From contig JAUZSE010000006.1 in the NCBI GenBank assembly GCA_030949725.1, positions 62,001 to 126,000 of the forward strand: a stretch of 64,000 nucleotides of DNA, in the 5' to 3' direction. The notes under the pieces are model-generated. The model was not told the DNA's origin and did not search any database. It worked only from the letters and a program-made list of their open reading frames with translations. The position numbers and the translations under genes are program-made. This stretch comes from Sulfurovum sp. (GTDB lineage Bacteria; Campylobacterota; Campylobacteria; Campylobacterales; Sulfurovaceae). This document shows, piece after piece, positions 36,483 to 40,087 of the stretch (the first letter of the stretch is position 1; every line of letters starts with the position of its first letter).

Positions 36483-37278
36483 TAAAAAAATCTTCTACAT
36501 TCATTTCTGGATTTCTGGCATTTGGAATCTATTTTATATTGATAGGCTTACTGATTTTTTATTTTAATACCCGTGATGAGGAAAAATCTAAACGGTATGT
36601 TGTAAAAGATGAACATCGTATACAAGTAGCACTTGCTGCACCCAAAAAAGTACTAACAAAACCTCAATCTGTAAAGAAAAAAGCACAACCTAAAAAAAAG
36701 ATCAAACCTAAACCCAAAATAAAACCTAAACCTAAAAAAATAATCAAGAAAAAAGTGATCAAAGAAAAAATTGTTAAAAAGCTTGCGAAGAAGAAAGATG
36801 AAAATATTACTAAGCCCAAAAAAAGTGATTAAACCCAAAGACCTTTTTGCAAATATTACATCAACAAAACAACCAAAACCTAAATTCAAGATGGAAGTGA
36901 CCGATAAGCCTATAAAACTTAAGAAAAGTAATCTCATAAAAGTATCTGATAAACCCAGTGCAAGTAGTATGGTTTCAAATTCTTTAAAGATGCAAAAAGA
37001 AATGAACAGTGGCGTTGAAAATGCTTATCTTGCCAAGGTGCAAAGTCTGCTTGAAGGTTGGCCTGCACAAAGTGACTATGCAGGAGAGAAAGTAAAGGTA
37101 GTACTTTATATAGATCCTCAAGGATTTTTTTGAATTCAAAATTAAGTCTGCATCAAACAATAACAATTTTAATGTAGGACTTACGGAGTACTTAGAACAG
37201 CTTCAAGAGTTTGGATTTGGTAGACATAAAGGGAGTAGAACATATAATTTTGAAGCAGAGTTCATAGCAAAAGAATAG
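36479..37278 (+). CDS. tolA: TolA/TonB-like energy-transducing protein (frameshifted)
   Basis: About 266 residues when repaired. N-terminal membrane anchor (FISGFLAFGIYFILIGLLIF), a long Lys/Pro periplasmic linker (KKKIKPKPKIKPKPKKI), and a C-terminal TolA/TonB-type domain (VENAYLAKVQSLLEGWPAQS, VKVVLYIDPQG, then FEFKIKSASNNNNFNVGL). Frames break in the A run near 36823 and in the T run near 37128 (seven Ts where six fit). The usual downstream tolB and pal genes are absent; a peroxiredoxin gene follows. Confidence 0.83.
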
Positions 37279-37383
37279 TAGAAATCCTAGAGCTATAGTA
37301 TTCCAAATCTTTAATTTAATTTTCTTTTAATCTTATTACGATAAAATTTCCTTGTTAATAAAAATTATCCTCAAGGAAACAAC

Positions 37384-37980
37384 ATGTTAGTAACTAAAAA
37401 AGCTCCAGATTTCACAGCAACAGCTGTACTTGCAAATGGTCAAATAGTAGACGGATTTAATCTTATGGAAAACCTAGGTGAAAAAGGTGCAGTACTTTTC
37501 TTCTATCCACTAGACTTTACTTTTGTATGTCCATCAGAAATTATTGCTTTTTCAAAAAGAGCAGCAGAATTTAGAGAAAGAGGCGTAAACATCATTGGTG
37601 TATCTGTAGATAGCCAATTTTCACACTTCGCATGGAGAGAAACTCCAGTAGCTGAAGGTGGTATCGGTAGAGTTGATATGCCTCTTGTAGCAGACCTTAA
37701 CAAACAAATCGCTAGAGATTATGATGTGCTTCTTGACGATGCAGTAGCACTTAGAGGTTCATTCCTTATTGATGCTGATGGTACAGTAAGACATGCCGTG
37801 ATCAATGACCTTCCACTAGGTAGAAACATTGATGAAATGATCAGAATGGTAGATACTATGTTGTTTACTAACGAGCATGGTGAAGTTTGTCCTGCTGGTT
37901 GGGTAAAAGGTGACGAAGGTATGAAAGCTGACACTGCTGGTGTTGCTGAATATCTTGCAAAACACGAGGGTGACCTGTAG
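37384..37980 (+). CDS. 2-Cys peroxiredoxin (AhpC/TSA family)
   Basis: 198 residues, intact. Reduces peroxides. Peroxidatic Cys49 lies in YPLDFTFVCPSEIIAF and resolving Cys169 in HGEVCPAGWVKGDEG. The strong ribosome-binding site (CAAGGAAAC) and an AT-rich leader suggest high expression. It is followed by a Fur/PerR-family regulator and then by the NiSOD genes on the opposite strand, so it belongs to an oxidative-stress cluster. Confidence 0.95.
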   Translation: MLVTKKAPDFTATAVLANGQIVDGFNLMENLGEKGAVLFFYPLDFTFVCPSEIIAFSKRAAEFRERGVNIIGVSVDSQFSHFAWRETPVAEGGIGRVDMPLVADLNKQIARDYDVLLDDAVALRGSFLIDADGTVRHAVINDLPLGRNIDEMIRMVDTMLFTNEHGEVCPAGWVKGDEGMKADTAGVAEYLAKHEGDL

Positions 37981-38067: not shown

Positions 38068-38084
38068 GCTTTAAAGGAGAATTC

Positions 38085-38507
38085 ATGACAGATTATGCAA
38101 CACTGCTTAAAGACTCTGGGCTTAAAGCAACATTTCAACGTATGAATATCCTCGAAAGCATTGAGCATCAGGGGCATATGTCTATTGATGCTATTTATGA
38201 AAAGGTAGTTAAAATACATCCTTCTCTTTCTTTAGCCACTGTGTATAAAAATATCATTTTGATGGTAGAAAATACTGTGCTTGTAGAAGTGCCTATTATA
38301 GGAAAAAAAGCTAAGTACGAATTACTAAAAGATGAACATATCCATTTGGTTTGTACGCAGTGTGGAGAAGTGGAAGATAAACCTCACAATAGCAGTGCTG
38401 ATGCAATTTTTAACGCTATGACACAGAGTGAGAACTTTATATTGGGTAAACAGCAGATTAATCTTTATGGGGTTTGTAGCCATTGTAATATTGCTATAGC
38501 TTCATAA
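38085..38507 (+). CDS. perR: Fur-family regulator, PerR-like
   Basis: 140 residues from ATG 38085, chosen for the AAAGGAGA site. Winged helix (GLKATFQRMNILESIEHQGH, SLSLATVYKNIILMVEN) then the metal/dimer domain with two Zn-type pairs, CTQCGEVED and CSHCNIAI, and metal-site histidines in DEHIHLVC. The short form and the neighbouring peroxiredoxin and SOD genes favour a peroxide-sensing role, but PerR and Fur cannot be separated by eye with certainty. Confidence 0.8.
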   Translation: MTDYATLLKDSGLKATFQRMNILESIEHQGHMSIDAIYEKVVKIHPSLSLATVYKNIILMVENTVLVEVPIIGKKAKYELLKDEHIHLVCTQCGEVEDKPHNSSADAIFNAMTQSENFILGKQQINLYGVCSHCNIAIAS

Positions 38508-38526: not shown

Positions 38527-38805
38527 TCAGAACTTAAATAGTACTTTATGTGTGATTTCTTTGAAGTTGAGACTTCCAAAATTTCGGCTATCAATACTAT
38601 GAGGGGTAGTTCCTTCTACAAAGTAAGTATTGTCTATTATCTTTGTGACTCTTTTTATCATCAGTCCATAGCTTTCTTTTTCAAAAACTATTGTATCGTC
38701 TATGTGTATTTTAGTATGTACAAATATTTTTCTACAAACGACTCTTTCACCATTTTTATAAAATGGATAAAGAGAGTCGCCAGATATTTTAAAGATTTGG
38801 AACAT
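38527..38805 (-). CDS. sodX: S24/S26-type peptidase, probable NiSOD maturation protease
   Basis: 92 residues with the Ser-Lys dyad of the signal peptidase/LexA clan: ISGDSLYPFYKNGERVVC (Ser) and YGLMIKRVTKI (Lys). There is no membrane helix. Its ATG overlaps the stop of the nickel superoxide dismutase gene (TAATG), so it is translationally coupled. NiSOD precursors need removal of an N-terminal leader to expose the nickel-binding His; a small peptidase of this clan (SodX) is the known partner. Confidence 0.8.
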   Translation of the reverse strand: MFQIFKISGDSLYPFYKNGERVVCRKIFVHTKIHIDDTIVFEKESYGLMIKRVTKIIDNTYFVEGTTPHSIDSRNFGSLNFKEITHKVLFKF

Positions 38806-39275
38806 TAAAGTACAGGGTATACCACATCTTCATTGGGTGCATAAGGAGATTTAGCTACTTTAGTTTTAACACCTTTGATAGCCCAGAATATTTCTGCAAA
38901 CTTGTTTACTTCTGCTAGAAGTGCCATAGATTTATCTCTAGATACTTGTTGTTTAACTGCTCCAGCAAGCATCATGATATTGTGTACGATAGTGTGTATT
39001 TCTGGATTATCAGCAATTTGTGGTCCTTTGATAAAGTCACCCCAGATAATACGAATTTCGTCTTTACATTTGATCGCTTCTGTTTCTTTTACTGCAACGT
39101 ATCTTGCCATATTGTTATGATAAAGTGCTTCACCTAGAGGCTCTTTAGTTTGTACACCAACTTCCATTAAGTCAACCATTCTTATCACTGACAATGCTGC
39201 AATTTGTGCAACTATTGGATCATAGATTCCACAAGGTACATCACAGTGTGCTGATACTTCTTTTAATTCAAACAT
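38805..39275 (-). CDS. sodN: Nickel-containing superoxide dismutase
   Basis: 156 residues. A 9-residue leader (MFELKEVSA) precedes the nickel hook HCDVPCGIYDP: His10, Cys11 and Cys15 would become His1, Cys2 and Cys6 after cleavage, with Tyr at mature position 9, exactly the NiSOD pattern. The rest is a four-helix-bundle type sequence (AALSVIRMVDLMEV, IHTIVHNIMMLAGAVKQQVS). The mature part is ~147 residues, longer than the classical ~117. It dismutates superoxide, probably in the cytoplasm since no export signal is seen. sodX follows, overlapping. Confidence 0.9.
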   Translation of the reverse strand: MFELKEVSAHCDVPCGIYDPIVAQIAALSVIRMVDLMEVGVQTKEPLGEALYHNNMARYVAVKETEAIKCKDEIRIIWGDFIKGPQIADNPEIHTIVHNIMMLAGAVKQQVSRDKSMALLAEVNKFAEIFWAIKGVKTKVAKSPYAPNEDVVYPVL

Positions 39276-39400
39276 TTTTATCCTTTTTTTGTTAAATAGT
39301 TTAAGATTTAGTATAGTATTTAAGCATAAAATTAAACTTAAACTTATGGAGAATGTAAGAAGAATGAGAGAAAAATACTCTTATTTAGACTATAAGAGTA

Positions 39401-40087
39401 TTATTTAAAAAGAGCAGAGCCTACACGTATGAGATTTGAGCCACATTTTATTGCCAATGTATAGTCTGAACTCATTCCCATAGAGCAGATAGAAGCTCCT
39501 TCTTTTTGAAGACTCTCATAGATACGGTGTGTGGTTTCAAAACTTTTTTGTATCTCTTTTGTCTCTTTACTGTGGGCACCTATAGTCATGACACCTTTAA
39601 GATTAATTTGAGGACAAGATTCTTTGATTCTTTGATAGATATCAAAAGCTTCTTCAGGGCTTAGACCTAATTTACTTTCTTCATTGGCTGCATTTATTTG
39701 TAAAAGACAGTGCATTTTTCTTTCTTTTGCTAAGAGCTTTTTATTTAGTTCTAGTGCCAATTCTATACTGTCAAGTGATTGCATAAGTGTTGGACGTGTA
39801 TTTATAAGGTTGTTAATTTTGTTTTTCTGTAGTGTGCCTATCATATGCCATTCTATAGGTAAATCATCTAAAGTATGCATACGGCTGCTGAGTTGTTGTA
39901 CCTGATTTTCTCCAAAGGCTCTTTGTCCCAAAGCATAAAGCGTAGAGATATTTTCAAGTTCTGTATATTTTGCAACGGTGACCAGTTTGACAATATGGTG
40001 TTCACTTACAGTGATTCGTGCCTGCTCAATGTTCCAGATAACTTCATCAAGATTGGCTCTTAAGTGTTCTTTTCCCAGTATGCTCAT
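39401..40087 (-). CDS. yggS: PLP-homeostasis protein (YggS/PROSC family)
   Basis: 228 residues, single TIM-barrel PLP-binding protein. Lys40 in KLVTVAKYTE is the PLP lysine; FGENQVQQL, IEWHMIGTLQKNKI and SMGMSSDYTLAIKCGSNLIR (phosphate-binding end) are the family blocks. It is not an enzyme but buffers PLP. It lies 5 bp downstream of rseP on the same strand. Confidence 0.93.
   Translation of the reverse strand: MSILGKEHLRANLDEVIWNIEQARITVSEHHIVKLVTVAKYTELENISTLYALGQRAFGENQVQQLSSRMHTLDDLPIEWHMIGTLQKNKINNLINTRPTLMQSLDSIELALELNKKLLAKERKMHCLLQINAANEESKLGLSPEEAFDIYQRIKESCPQINLKGVMTIGAHSKETKEIQKSFETTHRIYESLQKEGASICSMGMSSDYTLAIKCGSNLIRVGSALFK

Follow-up and report, generated by a model that had tools for sequence, protein, structure and literature searches.

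In Streptomyces, the nickel superoxide dismutase (NiSOD) SodN is processed by its cognate peptidase SodX (PMC3919588). An earlier survey detected NiSODs in cyanobacteria, actinobacteria and several other phyla, the proteobacterial enzymes belonging to the alpha and gamma classes (PMC8346466). For Campylobacterota, a nickel-dependent SOD has been described in Sulfurospirillum arcachonense, with an iron SOD in ten further genomes of Sulfurospirillum (PMC4794192). A literature search for NiSOD together with Epsilonproteobacteria, Campylobacterota or Sulfurimonas retrieved no report under those names. The S. arcachonense case is nevertheless the earlier one, and a NiSOD is not new to this phylum, which corrects the initial annotation of the locus.

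We analyzed a window of 64,000 nucleotides from the draft genome, 69.6% complete, of a Sulfurovum-type, vent-type sulfur bacterium (Table 1). Its genes sodN and sodX very likely constitute a unit of two genes that supplies the cytoplasm with NiSOD. In this Sulfurovum lineage, the unit most likely entered by insertion between yggS and perR and takes the place of Fe/MnSOD. The closest sodN loci are those of Sulfurovum metagenome-assembled genomes (90-91% identity), supporting the assumed Campylobacterota host. S. arcachonense belongs to the same phylum and also has sodX adjacent to sodN, its SodN is 72% identical, and FeSOD was not found. On the other hand, its leader comprises 15-20 residues depending on the start chosen, and its sodN lies outside the yggS-perR setting of Sulfurovum.

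Table 1. Features of the sodN-sodX locus and its neighbours (window coordinates)
Feature	Position	Strand	Basis
sodN, nickel superoxide dismutase precursor, 156 aa	38805..39275	-	Pfam/NCBIfam, PDB sequence match, predicted fold
Leader MFELKEVSA, 9 residues, predicted cut after Ala9	39249..39275	-	sequence; Ala at -1 invariant (19-sequence alignment)
Nickel hook HCDVPCGIY, precursor His10, Cys11, Cys15	39222..39248	-	sequence, alignment
sodX, 92-aa S26-like Ser/Lys peptidase	38527..38805	-	profile matches; Ser and Lys conserved in relatives
sodX Ser11 codon	38773-38775	-	
sodX Lys51 codon	38653-38655	-	
Region upstream of sodN: ribosome site AAAGGAT, TATACT -10-like box (candidate)	39276..39400	-	sequence
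yggS-like PLP protein, adjoining sodN on its upstream side	39401..40087	-	PF01168
perR/fur-family regulator	38082..38507	+	PF01475; NCBIfam PerR match below cut-off
2-Cys-type peroxiredoxin (prx), upstream of perR	37384..37980	+	PF00578/PF10417; synteny

The SodN precursor

The sodN gene starts with ATG, and there is no in-frame start further upstream. In its product, MFELKEVSA is followed by HCDVPCGIYDP; hence, a hook of the type HCxxPCGxY stands behind a leader. The protein scored above the cut-offs of both curated models, Pfam Sod_Ni (138 bits, E 3.5e-40) and NCBIfam sodN TIGR02753 (146.5 bits, cut-off 90). It also matched the sequences of the Streptomyces NiSOD structures (E about 1e-13) in an alignment beginning at His10, the residue expected as the mature N-terminus. 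Ala9 is invariant throughout 19 aligned relatives, and so are H10, C11, D12, P14, C15, G16, I17 and Y18 of the hook. The AlphaFold model (mean pLDDT 88.5) revealed the helical bundle typical of NiSODs and a C-terminal hairpin, with pLDDT values <50 for residues 8-14, a stretch that takes in most of the hook. All 16 PDB matches to the model at E<=0.001 are NiSOD chains. Thus, the proposed NiSOD with its hook behind a nine-residue leader was borne out by the sequence, the Pfam and NCBIfam models and the PDB matches; SodN is an ordinary member of a well-known kind of enzyme.

The hook pattern HCDxPCGxY is shared with the Streptomyces SodN-SodX system (TIGR02753/TIGR02754; 1q0d, 1t6u), and the helical-bundle folds are alike (TM scores of 0.87-0.92 when normalised by the solved chains). 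By contrast, the SodN of the window is longer, is modelled with a C-terminal beta hairpin and shows 25-29% identity in structural alignments. With 147 aa in the mature protein versus 117 aa in Streptomyces, the surplus of about 30 residues stated in the initial annotation is arithmetically correct, but it is not a special feature. When the actinobacterial and exported groups are set aside, the aligned relatives have mature lengths of 142-149 aa and an alignable C-terminal tail, and the modal length of cyanobacterial NiSODs is 157 residues (PMC8346466). By this comparison, long-form NiSODs normally have such additional residues, and the length is ordinary. The long-form enzymes of Thiotrichales, Anaerolineae and cyanobacteria have precursors of similar length; the first two also possess a C-terminal tail that can be aligned with SodN, the comparison with the cyanobacterial enzymes concerns length, and in all three the gene neighbourhoods differ from that of the window.

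The adjacent peptidase and exported-type copies

The sodN stop codon and the sodX start codon overlap in TAATG. Ser11 of the peptidase lies in the context G-D-S-L-Y-P and, like Lys51, is kept in the alignment with SodX proteins of relatives. The peptidase thus has a Ser/Lys dyad and is genetically coupled to sodN, as the initial annotation had described. The protein diverges from Streptomyces SodX, and its score with the NCBIfam SodX model (TIGR02754; 28.9 bits, cut-off 63.25) does not confer formal family membership. That this score is lower than the one obtained with the signal peptidase I model (38.6 bits, itself under the cut-off of 47) would agree with the neighbour being another S26/S24-like peptidase rather than the maturation protease. 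We regard this as very unlikely, since the coupling of SodX-type sodN genes to such a peptidase spans Campylobacterota, Gammaproteobacteria, Anaerolineales and an archaeon with retention of Ser and Lys, since the SodX model scores best for the SodX proteins of two relatives (41-43 bits), and since sodN copies bearing a signal peptide have no SodX candidate in the scanned stretch. A candidate adjoins sodN at nearly all SodX-type loci read, including the gammaproteobacterial, anaerolineal and archaeal ones. None was found at L028 and L029, whose sequences end about 0.3-0.6 kb beyond sodN on the downstream side, nor beside a Nonomuraea sequence (L089) in the stretch scanned. Position and dyad suggest that the 92-aa peptidase works like SodX. 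It would cleave the SodN precursor after Ala9, whereupon nickel could be bound by the His thus exposed, together with both cysteines of the hook, and the mature protein would assemble and dismutate superoxide in the cytoplasm.

A second Sod_Ni copy was identified in seven relatives (G438, G469, G502, G526, G527, G560, G561; L050-L057), while the window's draft genome gave no second match. In these copies, a hydrophobic, signal-peptide-like leader of 25-29 residues ending in Ala precedes HCQ[IV]PCGIY, and the scan found no SodX candidate within 600 bases. The copy of G526 (L056/L057) is split by a stop or frame change into two frames of 64 and 80 aa, due to either an assembly error or a broken gene. 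Going by the leader, the second copy is possibly a periplasmic NiSOD matured by signal peptidase; a NiSOD with a signal peptide is on record for Roseiconus lacunae (PMC12537917). The gammaproteobacterium G829 (L101) also has an exported-type NiSOD, which groups with the exported Sulfurovum copies in the tree and suggests that this form may have been exchanged, too.

Nickel and iron enzymes among relatives

In the window's draft genome, no match to PF00081, PF00080 or PF01880 was obtained; neither Fe/MnSOD nor CuZnSOD was found, nor was there a match for superoxide reductase, and CuZnSOD gave no match across the window's family. The search for sodB that had been proposed thus yielded no Fe/MnSOD. 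Because the draft is 69.6% complete, a missing sodB is weak evidence by itself, and it is therefore the pattern across the relatives that carries the argument for a replacement. Among 397 sampled Campylobacterota genomes, NiSOD occurs in five and Fe/MnSOD in 304; for the 175 genomes of the window's family, the numbers are 15 and 49. No genome of either sample has both (Fisher p 0.0006 and 0.006, respectively, values that ignore shared ancestry), although in the high-quality subset of the family the relation is not significant (p 0.09). A check for FeSOD in the 28 genomes reached, mostly NiSOD carriers, disclosed Fe/MnSOD in one. This genome (L026/G411), the sole NiSOD genome among those checked with such a match, may be either a real intermediate or a contaminated bin. 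A Sod_Ni match in G459 (L049) was set aside, as it was below the cut-off and accompanied by an equally weak cytochrome c' match; the 136-aa open reading frame has a C-terminal CMECH haem-type motif and is probably cytochrome c'-like rather than a NiSOD. Since the window's genome encodes a NiFe hydrogenase (large subunit, E 3e-199), the cell already handles nickel, and a supply of the metal is plausible. The initially suggested nickel rather than iron strategy is in line with these data: in the window's lineage, NiSOD apparently replaces the iron enzyme used by most relatives.

The yggS-perR site and the direction of exchange

The gene order YggS-SodN-SodX-PerR-Prx is common to ten distinct loci, and in occupied loci RseP adjoins YggS wherever the fetched stretch extends that far. 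The genes perR and sodX are convergent, with their stops 19 bp apart. In the window and in nine relatives sharing the site, AAAGGATA precedes the sodN start; TATACT was found upstream of sodN in about six sequences. Five loci (L008, L059, L061, L065, L076) contain additional sequence between yggS and sodN, which in the last four includes a repeat-like open reading frame of 164-173 aa with similar N-termini.

Reading of the PerR loci showed YggS adjoining PerR without sodNX in 15 genomes of the genus, 11 of which have Fe/MnSOD; the two genes are about 10 to 140 bases apart. Since yggS and perR are adjacent in FeSOD-bearing relatives, sodN-sodX probably entered between yggS and perR-prx by insertion. 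This is the simpler reading; a loss is possible, as gain and loss are not separable from occupied and empty sites alone. Were sodNX ancestral at this site in the Sulfurovum group and lost by the FeSOD-bearing relatives, the one supported cluster that joins NiSODs of several Campylobacterota families, with gammaproteobacterial rows inside, would fit as well. Such a history is rather improbable, though, given that in the phylum NiSOD is rare (5/397) and FeSOD common (304/397), that a NiSOD match is absent from most genus genomes, and that other Campylobacterota (Sulfurospirillum types, HLG06-type Sulfurovum) carry sodNX in different surroundings. Insertion between yggS and perR, with sodNX standing in for the Fe/MnSOD of most of the phylum, is thus the most likely course. 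Carriage by phages was rejected since phage records contained no sodN match; plasmid records gave two distant ones, from Novosphingobium and Nonomuraea.

A role of the perR/fur-family gene as a dedicated, Nur-like regulator of sodN was also rejected. The gene is present with or without sodN, pairing with prx in either case, and a GATAA..TTATC element is conserved upstream of prx while none was seen upstream of sodN. Of 78 genomes of the genus, 76 contain a PerR-like match, which in some is just a distant paralogue. The element upstream of prx (GATAAaATT..AAAAATTATC, window 37234-37383) is strongly conserved in nine sequences and is a candidate PerR/Fur-type operator. The H2O2 generated by SodN would probably be detoxified by peroxiredoxins, for example the one encoded by prx nearby.

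The acquisition proposed in the initial annotation is therefore probable as far as the insertion at yggS-perR is concerned; as to its source, the SodN tree gives weakly backed indications. Near relatives of SodN also exist in Thiotrichales, Anaerolineae and Thermoplasmatales. In the tree, Thiotrichales and Alcanivoracaceae fall inside the Campylobacterota set, the nesting of Thiotrichales being well supported (98/95 and 100/96), yet a single Campylobacterota clade was not rejected (p-AU 0.084). Despite its weak statistical backing, the apparent nesting speaks to some extent against sulfur-oxidising Gammaproteobacteria or another unsampled group having given sodNX to Campylobacterota and not the reverse, a direction which the near relatives in the three other groups, and the sampling of the tree without marine alphaproteobacterial, cyanobacterial and planctomycete sequences, would favour; we consider it somewhat unlikely. 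Equally tentative is the idea that sodNX is an exchangeable cassette, which brought about repeated swaps from iron to nickel SOD in Campylobacterota and was passed to sulfur-oxidising Gammaproteobacteria of the same habitat.

The pattern that emerges is one of clean gene replacement, though its interest is modest. Of close Sulfurovum genomes with the same flanking genes, some contain FeSOD and an empty site and others NiSOD at the site and no FeSOD match, and the choice of metal in superoxide defence is testable within one genus.
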